DNA from: an uncultured Lachnospiraceae bacterium
Lineage (GTDB): Bacteria > Bacillota > Clostridia > Lachnospirales > Lachnospiraceae
Length of the DNA: 10,587 nt
Reading direction: 5' to 3'
Assembly (NCBI GenBank): GCA_947068385.1
Contig: CAMTBF010000080.1
Span: 1 to 10,587 of the forward strand
Shown: one piece after another, positions 1 to 9,233 of the stretch
How positions within the stretch are numbered: the first letter of the stretch is position 1
Layout: every line of letters starts with the position of its first letter
Notes under the pieces: generated by a model
Seen by the model: only the letters and a program-made list of their open reading frames with translations
Databases searched by the model: none
Told to the model about the DNA's origin: nothing
Made by a program: the position numbers and the translations under genes

Positions 1-69
1 GTCTACTAAATGAACTCCGTGACCATACCAAGCGCCATCAGCTCTTGATACACGGTACACATTTTTATC
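1..69 (-). other. Open +1 frame continuing the kinase extracellular repeat (possible frameshifted 3' part)
   Basis: Directly after the kinase frame stops at 65-67, the +1 frame on the same strand is open for 23 codons to the window edge. It reads DKNVYRVSRADGAWYGHG and onward. This looks like the next strand pair of a DUF5050/propeller-type repeat (a pattern of I/V-Y-R/K-V then a DG turn), which is what would be expected after the kinase residues DDYFVIYC. The switch of frame falls at the bases TGC-GGA-TAA, read here as TGC-G-GAT-AAA. I infer a one-base insertion (or two-base loss) in the gene or in the assembly. The stretch is short, so a chance open frame is possible. Confidence 0.5.
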
Positions 70-1774
70 CGCAATAGATTACAAAATAGTCGTCAAGCAC
101 GAACAATTTCAGAATACCACTGAAACCCTCCAGGACAGAAACCGTCTCCAATGCGCCGGTTTCTACCTCGTGGACATATGCTGCCCCCTCATAGAGGAAA
201 TATAGTCTCCCATCTGTGGCAGACAGCCCTGAAAATACCCCTTCCTCATCCTCATACACATATGCATAGCTTTCGGAATCCAAATCATGGTACTGCAATG
301 CATGGCCTTCGTGCACAATCTGATAGTCCAGCCCATCCATAGTGGCGCAGATTCCGCCATTCATCAGATTCTCCGGAGTATTGCCCCTGACAGCAAAGCC
401 CCCTGACGGGACGGCAGTCGGCTCTACGGTAGGTATGGGCGTTGGCTCTGGCGTAGGCTCCGGGGTCGCCGCCACCTCCGGGGTGGGCTCCGGCGTGAAG
501 ACCGGCGGCTGCACCGTCCCCTGGGGCTGCGCGCCCTCTCCCATCGCCACGGAGGCGGATTCCTGGCTCTCACTGCCGGAAGCGCCCGCAGGCTCCGCGT
601 TCCTTCCCGTAAGCGCCAGCACCAGGATTCCCACCAGGAGAACCGGGACCGCCACAGCCGCGCCTATCAGCAGCCCCTTCTTTCGGGAAGCCCTTCCCCC
701 GTCTGCCTCTCCCTCCGCCGCCGGAAAGGACATGCCGTTGCCATCTGCTGTCCGGCCAGTGGGCGGAACCGCTCCCCCGGCCGGGGACGCCCCCGGCGAC
801 GCCTCGCCCTGCACGTTCCCCGCCTCCGGCGCGGAAAAGAACCGCTGGGCCACGGCGGGGGCGCTCTCCGGAGCCGGCCGGGACGCTTCCCCCTGTACCA
901 CGTTCAGCATCGCGTCCTTGAATGCCGCCATGCTCTGGAAGCGCTCCGCGGGCTGCACGCTGAGGGCCAGCAGGATGGCGTCCTCCGCGGCCTTGTCTAT
1001 CTGCACCCCCAGGGCGCTCGGCGGCACCAGATCGTCCTCGTCCATCCTCTCGATGGAATCCGGGGGCCGCTTTCCGGTCAGCGCGAAATAGAAGGTCGCC
1101 CCCAGGGAATACACATCCGTGAAAGGCCCCTGCTTCCCCCGGCGGGCATACTGCTCCTTGGGCGCGAATCCATGCTTGAGCACGATGTCCAGGCTCCTGC
1201 TCTTGTCTCCAAGGCTGTATCTGGCGGCGCCGAAATCCAGCAGCTTGACCCCTCCCTCCTTGGTGATATAGATATTATCCGGCGTCACGTCGCGGTGGAC
1301 GATCCCCCTGCTGTGCACGATGCTGAGGGCATCCATCACCGGGATCAGGATCCTTGCCGCCTCCTCGAAGGACACCTTCCCGCCATGCTGCCTCAGGTAC
1401 TCGTCAAAGCTGGTTCCCTCCACGAAGTCCATCACGAAATAAGCCGTTCCGTTTTCCTCGAAATAGCTGTGTATGCGGACGATGTTCTCACTTCCGATGA
1501 ACTGCGCCAGGGTCTCCGCTTCCTGGAGGAAGCAGGTCTTCCCATAGGCATAGCTGTCGCCCCGTTCCCCGGTAAAGGGCACCACTGTAGTCTGTCCGGT
1601 ACGGGTGGCCATGGCATCCGGGAAAAATTCCTTTACGGCTACCTTCGCCCCGGTCTTATGGTCCGTGGCCGCATAGGTAATGCCGAACCCGCCCTGCCCC
1701 AGAACCTTGTCCACGATATACTGCCCCGCCAGAACAGTGCCCTCCGGCAAGGCAAGCGGAAATCTGTCACTCAT
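65..1774 (-). CDS. Transmembrane Ser/Thr protein kinase with extracellular DUF5050-like domain (569 aa, probably truncated)
   Basis: Hanks-type Ser/Thr kinase, expected to phosphorylate cytoplasmic proteins in response to an outside or envelope signal. Visible motifs: glycine loop GQGGFG (26-31), invariant Lys in VAVKEFF (K48), catalytic loop HRDVTPDN (D162, N167), DFG (180-182), and APKEQY in place of the usual APE (204-209). A low-complexity linker follows, then one membrane helix (about 367-388), a Pro/Thr/Glu-rich stalk of PTPEP-like repeats (about 427-457), and a C-terminal outside part. That part begins GNTPENLMNGG and carries YFLYEG- and YFVIYC-type strands, as in DUF5050/propeller regions of clostridial kinases. 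The start at 1774 was chosen because GGAGGG lies 6 nt upstream and the kinase fold starts there. An in-frame ATG at 1915 would add 47 unconserved residues and lies inside the invertible segment. No leftward promoter of good quality lies upstream in this orientation. The stop interrupts a repeat unit (see the open frame at 1-69). Confidence 0.88.
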   Translation of the reverse strand: MSDRFPLALPEGTVLAGQYIVDKVLGQGGFGITYAATDHKTGAKVAVKEFFPDAMATRTGQTTVVPFTGERGDSYAYGKTCFLQEAETLAQFIGSENIVRIHSYFEENGTAYFVMDFVEGTSFDEYLRQHGGKVSFEEAARILIPVMDALSIVHSRGIVHRDVTPDNIYITKEGGVKLLDFGAARYSLGDKSRSLDIVLKHGFAPKEQYARRGKQGPFTDVYSLGATFYFALTGKRPPDSIERMDEDDLVPPSALGVQIDKAAEDAILLALSVQPAERFQSMAAFKDAMLNVVQGEASRPAPESAPAVAQRFFSAPEAGNVQGEASPGASPAGGAVPPTGRTADGNGMSFPAAEGEADGGRASRKKGLLIGAAVAVPVLLVGILVLALTGRNAEPAGASGSESQESASVAMGEGAQPQGTVQPPVFTPEPTPEVAATPEPTPEPTPIPTVEPTAVPSGGFAVRGNTPENLMNGGICATMDGLDYQIVHEGHALQYHDLDSESYAYVYEDEEGVFSGLSATDGRLYFLYEGAAYVHEVETGALETVSVLEGFSGILKLFVLDDYFVIYCG

Positions 1775-1780
1775 AAGAAA

Positions 1781-1786
1781 CCCTCC
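1781..1786 (-). promoter_or_regulatory. Kinase ribosome binding site
   Basis: GGAGGG on the minus strand ends 6 nt before ATG 1774. It lies outside the invertible segment, so the kinase keeps the same start and binding site in both promoter orientations. It fixes the start at 1774 rather than the longer frame from 1915. Confidence 0.75.
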
Positions 1787-1794
1787 ATGAAACG

Positions 1795-1818
1795 CATAAA
1801 AAAGTGTACTTTTCTGCC
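1795..1818 (+). repeat. Left recombination site (inverted copy) of a promoter switch
   Basis: A 24-bp site whose inner half is ACTTTTCTGCC (1808-1818) and whose centre is the dinucleotide GT (1806-1807). Bases 1800-1818 are an exact reverse complement of 1951-1969, giving 19 contiguous matches; over the full 24 bp, 20 positions match. The outer half (1795-1805) is degenerate, sharing the A-tract and AGT but not the outer GGC. Serine recombinases bind two half sites around a 2-bp crossover core, which fits this layout. It lies 21 bp upstream of the kinase start codon. Confidence 0.82.
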
Positions 1819-1950
1819 GTGGCCTGAAACGCACATGGCAAATTTCTACACAGGTCGGCACAATTCGGGCAAAAATAACTTTTTGCTGTAGAATTATTGA
1901 CTTTTGTGCATCCATACGTTACAATTCTGTCAGATTGGTTTGAGGGAATG
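1819..1950. other. Invertible promoter segment (132 bp)
   Basis: The DNA between the two inverted sites holds no plausible gene and carries one good promoter, on the plus strand. Site-specific recombination at the GT cores would flip it (position x maps to 3769 minus x). The promoter would then face left toward the kinase, with a predicted start near 1837 and a leader of about 63 nt. In the orientation given here, the kinase has no good promoter reading into it. The segment is more AT-rich than its surroundings. The inversion itself is an inference; only one orientation is visible. Confidence 0.8.
1897..1932 (+). promoter_or_regulatory. Sigma-A promoter inside the invertible segment, pointing away from the kinase
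   Basis: The -35 box is TTGACT (1897-1902), then a spacer of exactly 17 bp, then the -10 box TACAAT (1920-1925); predicted start is near 1932. An A/T-rich stretch (about 1871-1896) lies just upstream of the -35, as in UP elements. As sequenced it transcribes rightward through the site at 1951-1974 and antisense into the recombinase gene. After inversion the boxes would lie at 1867-1872 and 1844-1849, driving the kinase. Confidence 0.8.
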
Positions 1951-1974
1951 GGCAGAAAAGTACACTTTTCTGCC
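1951..1974 (-). repeat. Right recombination site, perfect dyad with asymmetric core
   Basis: On the plus strand the arms GGCAGAAAAGT (1951-1961) and ACTTTTCTGCC (1964-1974) are perfect reverse complements around the dinucleotide AC (1962-1963), which reads GT on the minus strand. Two 11-bp arms flanking a 2-bp non-palindromic core match the expected crossover site of a serine recombinase. The core has the opposite orientation to that of the site at 1795-1818, which predicts inversion rather than deletion. The last base of the site is also the last base of the recombinase stop codon. As RNA it could form a 10-bp hairpin, but there is no U tract, so I do not call it a terminator. Confidence 0.85.
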
Positions 1975-2600
1975 TATTTGAAATTGGATAGATACAGAGA
2001 ATCCTGATGTGCCTTTGCCCGATACCGGAAGCTTGCGACAGGCATATCGCACATCCTGGCAGCTTCCGCATTTGTCAGCTTCCCGGCCTTCCACCGTTCA
2101 TATATTTCATGGAAATTATCCGGCAGGGGCGCTGCCGGACGTCCGAACTTCACCCCTCTGGCCCTGGCGGCGGCAATCCCCTCTGCCTGCCTTTGCCGGA
2201 TATTGACGCGCTCATTCTCTGCCACAAAAGATAAGACCTGTAATACGATGTCGCTCAGGAATGTCCCCATCAGGTCTTTTCCACGCCGTGTATCCAGAAG
2301 CGGCATATCGATTACATAGATGTCAACTCCCCTTTCCCTGGTGAGCGTGCGCCACTGGTTCTGTATCTCCTCATAATTCCGGCCCAGGCGGTCTATGCTT
2401 TTGATGCAGAGCAGGTCGTCCTTTCTCAGTTTCCGCATCATGCGCCTGTAGGCCGGACGCTCGAAGTCCTTGCCCGACTGCTTGTCCATGTAGATATTCG
2501 ATTCAGGGACCCCGACCTCGTAAAGGGCCATGCGCTGCCTGTCCTCATTCTGATCCTTTGACGATACTCTCATATAACCATATACCCTTGTCTCTCCCAT
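1974..2600 (-). CDS. Serine recombinase, resolvase/invertase family (208 aa), likely the dedicated invertase
   Basis: Catalyses strand exchange through a 5'-phosphoserine link at short dyad sites. The N-terminal catalytic domain has YMRVSSKDQ with nucleophile S13 and R11, then the typical DKQSGKDFERPAY (about 39-51) and SIDRLGR (R71, R74). A long E-helix follows (about 117-150, LQVLSFVAENERVNIRQRQAEG), and the hinge GVKFGRP leads to a C-terminal helix-turn-helix (about 168-196). Size and order match the small Hin/Pin-type invertases and resolvases, not the large phage integrases. The start at 2600 is preceded by GGAGGT with 8 nt spacing; a longer frame to 2657 would run into the terminator of the upstream operon. 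The gene ends exactly at one recombination site, which strongly suggests it acts on the adjacent switch. A weak promoter may lie at 2657-2629 (TTGTCC, 17 bp, TTTTAT). There is no terminator after it, so some read-through toward the kinase is possible. Confidence 0.93.
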   Translation of the reverse strand: MGETRVYGYMRVSSKDQNEDRQRMALYEVGVPESNIYMDKQSGKDFERPAYRRMMRKLRKDDLLCIKSIDRLGRNYEEIQNQWRTLTRERGVDIYVIDMPLLDTRRGKDLMGTFLSDIVLQVLSFVAENERVNIRQRQAEGIAAARARGVKFGRPAAPLPDNFHEIYERWKAGKLTNAEAARMCDMPVASFRYRAKAHQDSLYLSNFK

Positions 2601-2638
2601 GCCATTACCTCCAAGTCCGGCTTTCTCCATAAAAATCC

Positions 2639-2668
2639 AAAAAAAGGAAGCGGACAAAGACCGCTTCC
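2639..2668 (-). terminator. Rho-independent terminator of the glycosyltransferase-ABC operon
   Basis: On the minus strand, GGAAGCGG (2668-2661) pairs perfectly with CCGCTTCC (2653-2646) around a 7-nt loop, followed by seven T (2645-2639). It lies about 70 bp after the stop of the last ABC gene and just upstream of the recombinase. It therefore separates the two transcription units. Confidence 0.9.
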
Positions 2669-2739
2669 CAGCTACATATGATCCTTCTTCATGCTCCTGA
2701 TGCTCTTGGTTCGTTCAGGGCATGATGCGTTCCGGCCAA

Positions 2740-4512
2740 TCACTCTTTTCCATCCACGCCCCCGCGCCGCTGGCTCTCATACAGCTCCCAGAACCGCCCC
2801 CGGCGCTTAAACAGCCCGTCGAAGTCCCCCTCCTCCACGATCCTGCCGCCCTCCATCACCAGGATCCTGTGGGCATTCCGGATGGTGGAGAGCCTGTGGG
2901 CCACGGTGACGGTGGTCAGGGAATCCGCGATCCTGTCCAGGCACTGCTGCACCTCCCGCTCCGCCCCGGAGTCCAGGGCGGCGGTGGCCTCGTCCAAGAG
3001 GAGTATGGGCGCGCCTTTCAGGATGGCCCGGGCGATGGCGATGCGCTGCCTCTGGCCGCCGGAGAGCTGGCCGCCCTGCTCCCCTGCCTGGGACTCATAG
3101 CCCCTGGGGAGGCTTACGATGAAGTCGTGGATGTCCGCCATCTTCGCCGCCTCCTCTATCCGGGCCTGGCTGGCATCAGGGCTGCCCAGCGCGATGTTCT
3201 CCCGGAGGGTGCCGTCGAAGAGGGTGCACTCCTGGGGCACATAGGCGAAGAGCTCTCGGATCGCCGCCAGGGAGAGCCCTGCGCCCTTTTGGCCGAAGTA
3301 AAGGATCTCCCCCTCCGTGGGCGCATAGAAGCCCTCCATCAGCTTGATCACCGTGGACTTCCCGCCGCCGGAGCCGCCTACGATGGCCAGATGCTCTCCC
3401 CTGTGCAGGACCAGGTCAAGGCCCTTTATCACCTCATCCGTCCCTGTGTCATAGGAAAACCCCACATCCCTGAATTCCACCGCGATGTCCCCGTCCCCTG
3501 GAATCTCCCTGCTGCCCTCCTCCAAATCCTCCAGTGGCTCATCCAGCAGCTTGAAGACCCGCTCCATGGCCACCAGCCGGGACTGGGACAGCAGCAGGAA
3601 GGTGCTCAGCCGGAACACCGAATCCGCCATCATGCTCATCAGGCTGGCATGGAACACCGCTTTCCCCAAGGTCACCTGGCTGCCCGCCAGGACGATGCCC
3701 AAAATGAACCCCACCGCCTGGGCGGACTGGGCGAAGAAGTCCACGGTGCCATAGGTGATGCCCATGACCGTCTGGCTCTTCATGCGCTTCTCCCGGATCA
3801 CGCCGCAGGCGGCTCTATAGCGCCCGGCCAGGGCCGCCTGCAGGGCGAACACCCGTATCACGGGAATGGAGCGCAGGGCCTCTATCAGGAAAGAGGCTGA
3901 ACCGGCTATCTCCTCCTTCGCCCCTCTCTCCAGCCGTTTGGCCAGGGGATTCAGGTACAGGGACAATCCCATGTTGATGCCGCTGTACAGCACCCCTGCC
4001 ACCGCGATGTGCCAGTCTCCCATAAGCAGCATCACAAGGGTGATCGGAAAGATTACCGCGAACCGGATCAGGTTCACCACCAGAAAGGTATTGAATACCG
4101 ACATGGCTCCCTCCGCGTCGCTGGTCAGGCGGGTGATATAGTCGCCGACCTTGTACCGGGACACGGCCCCACTCGGCATGTGGAGGATATGGCTGAACAG
4201 GAGCTTGCGCAGCCGTACCGTGCCCTGGGCAGAGGAGATGGCCTGGAGGTACTTGCCATAGACCACCGGCGGCACGAACAGCAGGAACACAGCCAGCATC
4301 CAGAACAAAGTCGCCATGATGTCGCCCTGGCTGGCCCCGGTGACGATGTCGATCAGCTCCTGGTTGATATAAGGCATGGAAAACAGAATGGCCAGCTCGA
4401 AAGCCCCCAGTGCCAGGCCAAGGAGATATCTCTTCCGGGCCGGGCCCATGTAGGAGAAGCTCCTGCTATATAATCCGAACATCGATCTCTTCATAGATTC
4501 ATCCCCATTCAT
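2740..4512 (-). CDS. ABC exporter half-transporter, permease fused to ATPase (590 aa)
   Basis: A type I (MsbA/LmrA-like) ABC exporter subunit in the cytoplasmic membrane. The N-terminal part (about 25-330) has several long hydrophobic helices (for example 28-48, 66-85, 143-165 and 262-278) typical of the six-helix exporter domain. The ATPase half (about 340-580) has Walker A GGSGGGKST (379-387), Q-loop Q427, signature LSGGQ (483-487), Walker B ILLLDE with E508, and switch H539. All catalytic residues are present. The start ATG overlaps the stop of the upstream half-transporter by 4 bp (ATGA), indicating translational coupling. M7 (MKRSMFGLY) is an alternative start with GGGGA nearby. The pair probably forms a heterodimer. 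The substrate cannot be read from the sequence; the glycosyltransferase in the operon hints at a glycan, glycolipid or glycosylated product. Confidence 0.95.
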   Translation of the reverse strand: MNGDESMKRSMFGLYSRSFSYMGPARKRYLLGLALGAFELAILFSMPYINQELIDIVTGASQGDIMATLFWMLAVFLLFVPPVVYGKYLQAISSAQGTVRLRKLLFSHILHMPSGAVSRYKVGDYITRLTSDAEGAMSVFNTFLVVNLIRFAVIFPITLVMLLMGDWHIAVAGVLYSGINMGLSLYLNPLAKRLERGAKEEIAGSASFLIEALRSIPVIRVFALQAALAGRYRAACGVIREKRMKSQTVMGITYGTVDFFAQSAQAVGFILGIVLAGSQVTLGKAVFHASLMSMMADSVFRLSTFLLLSQSRLVAMERVFKLLDEPLEDLEEGSREIPGDGDIAVEFRDVGFSYDTGTDEVIKGLDLVLHRGEHLAIVGGSGGGKSTVIKLMEGFYAPTEGEILYFGQKGAGLSLAAIRELFAYVPQECTLFDGTLRENIALGSPDASQARIEEAAKMADIHDFIVSLPRGYESQAGEQGGQLSGGQRQRIAIARAILKGAPILLLDEATAALDSGAEREVQQCLDRIADSLTTVTVAHRLSTIRNAHRILVMEGGRIVEEGDFDGLFKRRGRFWELYESQRRGGVDGKE

Positions 4513-7509: not shown

Positions 7510-8502
7510 TCATTTCAGCAGTATCACCGTGTGGAACAGCTTCCCCTCCTCCTCGTAATACTGCCGCATGGTGCCCCCGTATTTTTCCACCGTGTCCCTG
7601 ATGCTCTTCATGCCTGTCCCATGGCCAGTTCCCGGTTCCTTGCGGGTCAGGAAGCCACCCCGGCCGTCGCTCTTCGGGGCCTCCCTGCAGGAGTTCACCA
7701 GCGTTATTACCAGCAGGCTCCCCGGCCTGGCATCCACCATCAGCTCCAGATATGGTTCCTTCGCGCCCTGTAGCCCCTGTGCCGCTCCCGCCGCAGCCTC
7801 CACCGCATTCTCCAGGAGGTTGCCGAAGAGCGCGGTCATGTCGCCGGGCTCCAGGAAGTCCACGGACTTGTCCCGCACGTCCACCAGGAAAGCGATCCCC
7901 TTTTCCTGGCAAATCTCCCCGTACCGGCGCAGGATCACGTCCAGGATCCGGTTGCCGCAGATGCGCACCTTGTTCTGCAGGGCCGGGGAGGCCTCCAGCT
8001 CGCGCACATACCGCGCCACTTCCTCCTCCAGCCCCTCCTCCGCCAGGTCCCGCAGGGTCTCCAGGTGCTTGCGGATGTCGTGGATGAGCACCCGCTGCCT
8101 GTCGTACTGCTCCTCCAGCGCCCTGTAATAGCCCACCTCCGTCTGGCGCTTCTGGAGGGCCAGTTGGTCCGTCAGGTTCGCCTGCTCCTTTCGCCTGCCG
8201 TACTGCCACCCGGCGAAGATCAGCAGGTCATCGAACGCCAGCAGAAGGGCTCCTGCCAGCAGCACGGAGCCTGTGCTGGGCGGGAGGTCCAGGAACGCCC
8301 CCATGTAAGCCATGACTAACAAAAGGAATATGGTGAACAGGGAAACTCCCGTCAGCACCAGGGCCAGGGGGCCGCAGTCCTGGGGGAGAGCGGAATCCGC
8401 CTTTGACAGGCGGATGCATATCTTCAGATAGAATCGGTACAGCAGCCTGCTGCCAAAGGCCAGCAGGGCAAATCCAAGCAGCAAACAAACCGTCTCTCTC
8501 AT
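7510..8502 (-). CDS. Sensor histidine kinase, HPK10/GHKL type (330 aa)
   Basis: Membrane sensor kinase of the AgrC/VirS-like class that pairs with LytTR regulators. About three hydrophobic segments are seen (2-22, 46-70, 78-99), then a coiled region (105-140). The phospho-acceptor is probably H141 in VLIHDIRKHLETL. The ATPase part has an N-box NLLENA (N228, N232) and a G-box GTGHGTG (291-297); it ends KLFHTVILLK, as GHKL domains do. The sensor part is shorter than the usual 6-7 helix AgrC sensor, so it may sense through the membrane or an extra partner. The start overlaps the regulator stop by one base (TGATG). A longer frame extending to 9147 is only a shadow of the regulator gene and is not part of this protein. 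The signal is unknown; no autoinducer peptide gene is seen. Confidence 0.92.
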   Translation of the reverse strand: MRETVCLLLGFALLAFGSRLLYRFYLKICIRLSKADSALPQDCGPLALVLTGVSLFTIFLLLVMAYMGAFLDLPPSTGSVLLAGALLLAFDDLLIFAGWQYGRRKEQANLTDQLALQKRQTEVGYYRALEEQYDRQRVLIHDIRKHLETLRDLAEEGLEEEVARYVRELEASPALQNKVRICGNRILDVILRRYGEICQEKGIAFLVDVRDKSVDFLEPGDMTALFGNLLENAVEAAAGAAQGLQGAKEPYLELMVDARPGSLLVITLVNSCREAPKSDGRGGFLTRKEPGTGHGTGMKSIRDTVEKYGGTMRQYYEEEGKLFHTVILLK

Positions 8503-9233
8503 CAGCGCATGGTCTCCACATACAGCATATAGGCATCCCTGAAGCCCTTGTACCTGCGCCTGGCCAGATAGGCGCTGTACTGTCCGCCGTCCGGGGCGGA
8601 AAGGGATATCAGGGTATCGGAAAAGGAACTGACGTACTTCATGTTCACGATGAAGCTCCGGTGGGGCCTGGCGAAGCACCCGATGTCTAAAAGCTTCTCC
8701 CACTCCCCCATCCTCTGGACGGACTCGTAGAGCCTGTCCACGGTCTGCACCGTCACCCTGCGCCCCATGGCCTCCACCATCACAATCTCGTCCGCGTACC
8801 TTGTGACGGTCTCCGTCTTGGTCTCTATGGCGATGGGCCTGGTGTAGACGCTGATCTGGTACAGGGCGTCCTTCACGTTGCGGAAGAGCCTCGCCTTGTC
8901 CAGGGGCTTGGAGAGGTAGCGGAACACATGGAACTTCATGGCCTCGTCCAGATAGTCGGCGTAGCAGGTGACGATGAAGATCTTGATATAGGGATTGCGG
9001 CTCTGGAGTCTCGCCCCCACATGGATGCCGCTGGTGCCGGGCATCTCCACGTCCAGGAAGGCCATGTCCGCCCTCTCGGCGTCCGGCCTGTCCTCCACCT
9101 CCAGGAGCCTGTCGCCGTTCACGTAGGCGGCGTACTCCGGCTGGCACAGGCCGTTTTGGTCGAAGTACTCCCGCAGGTAGTCCTGTAGCTGCACCAGAAT
9201 CCTTTCATCATCGTCGCAGAGCACTATGCGCAT
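8502..9233 (-). CDS. LytTR-family response regulator (243 aa)
   Basis: Two-domain transcription regulator. The receiver (about 1-120) has the acidic pocket D7-D8, phospho-acceptor D61 in MAFLDVEMPG, the conserved T89 and K109 in YLSKP. The LytTR DNA-binding domain (about 140-240) shows the family pattern, including CFARPHRSFIVNMKYV. The start at 9233 was chosen over 9266 because GGGAGG lies about 9 nt upstream and the receiver strand MRIVLCDDDE begins there. It is transcribed with the histidine kinase from the promoter at 9268-9296. Likely targets are its own region or the adjacent glycosyltransferase-exporter operon; this is inferred from position only. Confidence 0.94.
   Translation of the reverse strand: MRIVLCDDDERILVQLQDYLREYFDQNGLCQPEYAAYVNGDRLLEVEDRPDAERADMAFLDVEMPGTSGIHVGARLQSRNPYIKIFIVTCYADYLDEAMKFHVFRYLSKPLDKARLFRNVKDALYQISVYTRPIAIETKTETVTRYADEIVMVEAMGRRVTVQTVDRLYESVQRMGEWEKLLDIGCFARPHRSFIVNMKYVSSFSDTLISLSAPDGGQYSAYLARRRYKGFRDAYMLYVETMR

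Follow-up and report, generated by a model that had tools for sequence, protein, structure and literature searches.

The window analysed here is an entire contig (G000:C80, 10,587 nucleotides) of a draft genome of 581 contigs that is 89.5% complete. Near its start, two genes follow each other on the minus strand: a small serine recombinase of 208 amino acids that is probably an invertase (1974..2600; PF00239, E = 1.9e-30, residues 6-150) and a Hanks-type Ser/Thr kinase (65..1774; PF00069, E = 1.8e-33) whose 3' end is broken at the contig edge. The short region between them is bounded by two 24-bp putative recombination sites in opposite orientation, each with a GT core. The left site (1795..1818, plus strand) consists of an A-rich outer arm, the core and the inner arm ACTTTTCTGCC, and the right site (1951..1974, minus strand) is a perfect 11+2+11 dyad with its GT core on the minus strand. 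Their arms at 1800-1818 and 1951-1969 form a 19-bp perfect inverted repeat with 132 nt between, a length reached in none of 2,000 dinucleotide shuffles of 1700-2100, where the longest repeat was 16 bp. The enclosed 132 bp (1819..1950) form a putative invertible segment. An earlier note on this DNA had described such inverted sites, with the recombinase gene ending at one of them and the kinase starting just beyond the other, and coordinates, repeat and shuffles all agree with it: the recombinase stop codon (1976-1974) lies at the edge of the right-hand site and the kinase ATG (1774) lies 20 nt from the left-hand one. The locus displays two opposed dyad sites with an identical asymmetric 2-bp core, the configuration expected of an invertase.

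When the rest of the genome was searched with up to 3 mismatches tolerated, the site pair was unique at up to 2 mismatches in this 89.5% complete assembly; the search also returned the right-hand site on the opposite strand (2 mismatches) and two matches with 3 mismatches on other contigs. A terminator-like hairpin (2645..2669, minus strand) separates the upstream ABC transporter genes from the recombinase, with 4 terminator-like sites found in 1-4000 versus 3.0 expected, and an Rfam search of the window gave no match at gathering scores. Elsewhere in the window, 8502-9233 encodes a LytTR response regulator, and the neighbouring reading frame (7510-8502) may encode its sensor kinase.

In an alignment of 14 recombinase sequences, S13 and R11 were nearly invariant and R71 and R74 invariant; we take these four to be the active-site serine and arginines. 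A structural model built from the same 14 sequences (mean pLDDT 83.9) showed C-terminal helices at residues 163-171, 177-183 and 188-207, and Foldseek aligned it over nearly its full length with DNA-bound Sin and gamma-delta resolvase, at TM-scores of 0.43-0.62 whose low values we read as a different setting of the domains in the model; the alignment with Gin covered the catalytic domain. Model and alignments together point to a helical DNA-binding domain at the C-terminus, and a Pfam scan of the protein returned no helix-turn-helix family match. Sin, a resolvase, was also the best sequence match among solved structures, and the protein scored 45 bits with the NCBIfam Mpi model NF009949, below that family's cut-off of 272.

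For the kinase, H160 R161 D162 and D180 F181 G182, which we take to be the HRD and DFG motifs of Hanks-type kinases, were invariant in an alignment of 32 sequences, and a hydrophobic segment followed by a proline-rich linker could be recognised by eye downstream of the kinase domain. A matching protein reported as 100% identical (P0001) is 798 amino acids long, and the window copy of the frame stops some 67 nt short of the end of the contig, so that the frame break near the contig start (1-70) is probably a contig-edge artefact. The score with the PASTA kinase model NF033483 was 152.5 bits, below the cut-off of 450. In a model of P0001 built on the 32 sequences (mean pLDDT 72.7), the kinase domain was closest to PpkA, at 33% identity, and a mostly beta, well-predicted outer domain, which may be propeller-like, began at about residue 460. 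The few kinase relatives with an organism name were all labelled Lachnospiraceae, and at E <= 1e-120 the kinase occurred in no more than 3 of 397 family genomes, its own included. No recombinase turned up beside the kinase in 16 further stretches that carry one, a few of which are short contigs, nor beside the kinase relatives of five further loci (L381-L385); such relatives without a nearby recombinase are numerous, which counts against a kinase switch. Upstream of one kinase relative (L255, 9469-9613, contig G053:C239) lies a 19-bp inverted repeat that resembles a repeat at another locus of the same genome (L051), and it was set aside.

The earlier note had also placed one promoter inside the 132 bp, with its direction unstated. 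We found it as a sigma-70-like TTGACT-17-TACAAT at 1897..1925 on the plus strand, pointing to the 3' end of the recombinase gene and hence, as assembled, away from the kinase. One sigma-70-like promoter was found in 1-4000 versus 1.1 expected by chance, so the promoter alone is weak evidence, and that it is known at this locus as a consensus match only counts against an invertible promoter. Flipping the segment in silico brings the end of the -10 box to 70 nt before the kinase ATG, which is preceded by a ribosome-binding-like GGAGGG (1781..1786, minus strand) recognised by eye. From this geometry, we infer that the assembled state is OFF and the flipped state ON for the kinase.

These elements suggest the following mechanism. 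The recombinase would bind the two inverted dyad sites beside its own 3' end, cut at the GT cores and invert the 132 bp between them. In the OFF state, transcription would run from the promoter into the recombinase 3' end, the direction opposite to the kinase; in the ON state, it would reach the kinase through a leader of about 60-65 nt holding the left site and the ribosome-binding-like sequence. Within one clone, some cells would then make a membrane Ser/Thr kinase and others would not. At the locus itself, both the inversion of 1819-1950 and its effect on kinase level are what we infer from this arrangement.

If the recombinase is dedicated to such sites, they should accompany its relatives. 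Relatives at E <= 1e-60 were present in 103 of 397 family genomes, the window's own included, and in 96 of 334 genera; named genomes held at least 573, of which the best 80 were used, and a viral collection contained 110, of which 80 were kept. Three sets of loci, including some near-identical copies, were assembled: 80 from named genomes, 89 from the family and 20 from the genus and order (12 belonging to the window's genus and 8 to other families in that order), with 5, 5 and 1 recombinases, respectively, excluded at contig ends. We then searched for inverted 24-mers matching at 19/24 or better within 90 nt after the recombinase stop codon, using as control a stretch 900 nt downstream. Site pairs accompanied 38/78 named, 40/86 family and 9/19 genus-and-order usable recombinases, compared to 1/75, 1/86 and 0/19 of the control stretches, giving 87 of 183 usable copies versus 2 of 180 controls. 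That 96 of the 183 lacked a pair at this threshold counts against the proposed mechanism. Median site separations were 127.5, 137 and 154 in the three sets.

Among 114 switches with pairs of at least 18/24, the core dinucleotide was equal in the two sites in 110, an agreement that is partly built in since pairs were selected for likeness. The core was GT in 78 of the 114, the site consensus being TTaCaAAAAaGTGTACTTTTTTGcAA, and AT in 12, including L048, L378 and L379; AT is self-complementary and would not fix the direction of recombination. Recombinase distance correlated with site distance over 88 switches (Mantel r = 0.51, p = 0.001), as would be expected of dedicated recombinase-site pairs, although shared descent alone would account for part of this correlation. 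One cassette from the window's genus (L276 in G404) was identical over switch and flanks to that of L063, on a contig labelled uncultured Acetatifactor; the window's genus may thus be Acetatifactor, unless the likeness comes from transfer of the cassette. For the window's own switch, no match above 75% DNA identity besides its own genome was found among the main matches in 138 genomes of the genus (at most 3 candidates scored per genome), and no close copy of the switch DNA was found in 61 relatives. Two loci showed recombinases face to face: in L333 (G383:C1:1976800-1982600), two facing recombinases enclose a single common switch for which no target gene is apparent, and in L329 (G324:C75:123600-129300), two family members lie in facing orientation with about 3.4 kb between them.

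Comparison between genomes then revealed an inversion at a relative cassette. A near-identical cassette is common to four genera of the family (G014, which belongs to the window's genus, G322, G409 and G441), which suggests recent transfer, and in the G441 copy (L277) the switch lies the opposite way round from the other three (L036, L273 and L314). L036 and L277 differ at 76 of 264 positions as they stand and at 1 of 264 once the DNA between the cores is inverted; the break points fall within 10 bp that include GTGTAC. Between L273 and L277, 124 bp are inverted at 100% identity, with flanks at 99.7% and 99.9%, and L314 gave the same inverted picture. By motifs, we take the gene behind this switch to be C5 DNA methyltransferase-like. 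The site pair of this cassette scores only 17/24 in the 24-mer comparison, showing that real switches fall below the 19/24 threshold. In a pair comparison with loose flank limits, 444 pairs comprised 8 inverted, 15 in the same orientation and 421 unclear. One of the eight (L333.0/L333.1) was dropped as a single locus read from both ends; three of the remaining seven are the L277 comparisons, and L272/L092 is weak (0.51 to 0.63). Other pairs seemed inverted at lower identity (L272/L068, L103/L104 and L116/L127), as did L037/L063. Many apparent inversions relative to L333, among the matches listed, are explained by its two facing recombinases and were disregarded.

Taking this together with the matching variation of recombinases and sites, we consider the locus to be, with a probability of roughly 78%, a self-contained phase-variation cassette in which an invertible promoter and its dedicated serine invertase would control the kinase. 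This was the central proposal of the earlier note, and the site pairs in relatives, the inversion at the relative cassette and the recombinase-site variation support it; the flip of 1819-1950 itself and its effect on the kinase are predicted, and we rate the proposal as partly supported given how other direct recombinase-kinase pairs turned out.

Such pairs, with the recombinase directly followed by a kinase, also occur in two further species, G546 and G548. The earlier note had held that repeats missing from relatives of this kind would speak against a switch. The site-pair detector found no pair at either locus, and the presumed sites, read from GTATAC cores that align with the cores of G013, match at 15/24 and 16/24, no better than chance (shuffled maxima 18 and 17); the G013 pair reaches 19/24 versus a shuffled maximum of 17. 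Site-like cores are thus there and the pairs around them are at about chance level, which tempers the case for a switch. All three switches have AT cores and are aligned the same way round, so they may be locked.

The orientation of switches in assembled genomes bears on the same issue. Scoring 96 distinct switches with a sigma-70 matrix (L333 counted from both sides), we found that the better promoter faced the recombinase in 46 switches and the target in 17, the two directions lying within 3 bits of each other in 33. A smaller set of 56 switches gave 33 to the recombinase, 5 to the target and 18 undecided by score. Assembled genomes lean to OFF, and the bias of 46 to 17 (binomial p = 3e-4, related switches not being independent) exceeds what would be expected of a switch without preference, which counts against free inversion.

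The locus might accordingly be read as a remnant that once flipped and is now fixed in the OFF state, the kinase being expressed from elsewhere or silent. The excess of OFF-like over ON-like switches in relatives (46 to 17 of 96) and the weak sites and single orientation of the three kinase cassettes of one clade would fit; against these stand the perfect 19-bp inner-arm repeat at the locus and a recombinase frame that is open, with the residues conserved in relatives present, as selection may have kept it. We therefore regard fixation as improbable.

A second alternative is that the recombinase is the main output, the OFF promoter giving an antisense transcript to its gene and the kinase merely lying downstream. 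The promoter does point into the recombinase 3' end here, as it does in the 46 of 96 switches versus 17 mentioned above. However, 92 of 97 cassettes have a same-strand frame of at least 60 amino acids that starts no more than 500 nt from the switch (median 35 nt; switches at 19/24 or better, target frames picked mechanically as the longest frame, without a control), and these frames fall in 71 sequence clusters: the gene varies and the switch stays, which makes this alternative less credible still than a locked switch. Pfam matches among the genes in first or second place after the switches include flagellin, CsrA, TnpB-like proteins, helicases, restriction-system methylases, GGDEF/EAL proteins and TadZ, along with surface proteins, transferases of acyl and glycosyl groups and capsule genes, and the kinase is one among many targets of this type of cassette. 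The least credible alternative by far is that the recombinase acts as a resolvase or belongs to a mobile element, its repeats serving as cis sites for excision or dimer resolution. Although its best sequence match among solved structures is Sin, a resolvase, and relatives lie on contigs of the viral collection, an inversion was seen at a relative cassette and the sites here are inverted with asymmetric cores, an arrangement that leads to inversion.

Kinases also recur as targets outside the direct pairs. The G013 switch precedes an operon encoding FHA, PP2C, trypsin-FHA and PP2C proteins and a kinase with MORN repeats. An 18/24 pair in G501 lies ahead of a run that, as read from the translations, holds FHA, trypsin-like, PP2C, kinase and VWA proteins, and a 20/24 pair in G277 lies ahead of FHA-like and kinase-like proteins, neither with a Pfam match (the FHA-like call was made by eye and by clustering with the G013 protein). 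On a Robinsoniella contig with a 22/24 pair, a DUF6273/fn3 protein is encoded first and the kinase second. Mapping the kinase label of seven recombinases on a tree of 98 required 5 changes, all 5 forced by well-supported branches, and 5 of 500 shuffles were as low; a single origin of the kinase link without loss is excluded on this tree, on which gains and losses are indistinguishable. Kinases as an enriched target were considered and rejected: among 269 loci gathered without regard to kinases, most with a few kb downstream, a clear kinase-like match was found only in L048, L110 and L342, while L060 has a weak match (E = 1.2e-6) over 3 kb further along. We thus claim recurrence of the kinase link and not its enrichment. 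The kinase-like protein of L342 is possibly a pseudokinase: it had no Pfam match, and visual inspection did not reveal the catalytic motifs.

If the kinase is phase-variable under an invertible promoter, only part of a clone would have a phosphorylation pathway, so that the population would hedge its signalling in place of a single surface structure, and a flip switch would also account for mixed behaviour in pure culture. More generally, a site pair beside a recombinase of this family marks the gene that follows as a candidate for phase variation, and with the site consensus orientations could be counted from reads in existing metagenomes. Interest in the locus rests on the repeated link with phosphosignalling and on how widely the cassette occurs; the weak sites of the other direct kinase pairs lessen it. 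As a speculation that we hold to be rather unlikely in its entirety, a portable kit of serine invertase and a promoter inverton of about 130 bp at its 3' end may have spread through Clostridia with OFF as default and an antisense, self-limiting feedback on the invertase, and may have inserted separately several times at Hanks-kinase/FHA/PP2C loci, so that phosphorylation states would be set by a DNA flip.

Several known systems resemble parts of this arrangement. Hin of Salmonella and Gin of phage Mu are likewise small serine recombinases acting on inverted dyad sites with a 2-bp core, and Hin inverts a promoter. The Hin segment, about 1 kb long, includes hin itself, and its inversion depends on Fis and an enhancer, whereas the segment here is 132 bp and excludes the recombinase gene. 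Mpi of Bacteroides fragilis is a serine invertase that flips short promoter segments, as proposed here, but it acts on many promoters at a distance, while the present locus has a single site pair beside the gene (at up to 2 mismatches, in a genome 89.5% complete). RecV of Clostridioides difficile is a tyrosine recombinase that acts at several loci. Phase-variable signalling has been described in this Clostridia gut bacterium for CmrRST, which includes a sensor kinase, and for pdcB (PMC8844915, PMC9286219; reviewed in PMC11868660); the likeness lies in phase-variable signalling as such, the systems there being a response-regulator/sensor-kinase system and a c-di-GMP phosphodiesterase. Invertons in a defined gut community (PMC11892184) include two groups that share new repeat motifs and come mostly from Firmicutes_A; they are similar in being invertible segments of Clostridia-like gut bacteria, and the main text of that study has no mention of a kinase or of serine.

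The closest parallel is the hin gene upstream of csrA-tldR loci, for which a recent paper reports inversions of about 120 bp in a promoter-bearing region immediately downstream of hin, with TldR, CsrA and flagellin as targets and a FliA-dependent promoter (PMC13418256, Nat Microbiol 2026). In layout only, with a recombinase directly upstream of a short inversion segment, that cassette is the same as the one described here, so the cassette type is already known; the present locus differs in its target, a Hanks-type kinase in place of TldR, CsrA or flagellin, and in a promoter that resembles the main sigma type. In our own set, TnpB-like genes lie behind the switches of L103, L104, L109, L118 and L127, with CsrA-like or flagellin-like genes near several of them, and these are probably the csrA-tldR loci of that study. 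The earlier note had held a serine-invertase switch dedicated to such a kinase to be undescribed, and this view needs to be narrowed: the layout and phase-variable signalling had both been published, and our literature search, which lay mostly outside subscription papers, found no serine-invertase switch of a Ser/Thr kinase. What is known is thus the layout of the cassette, and what seems new is a Hanks-type Ser/Thr kinase as its probable target.
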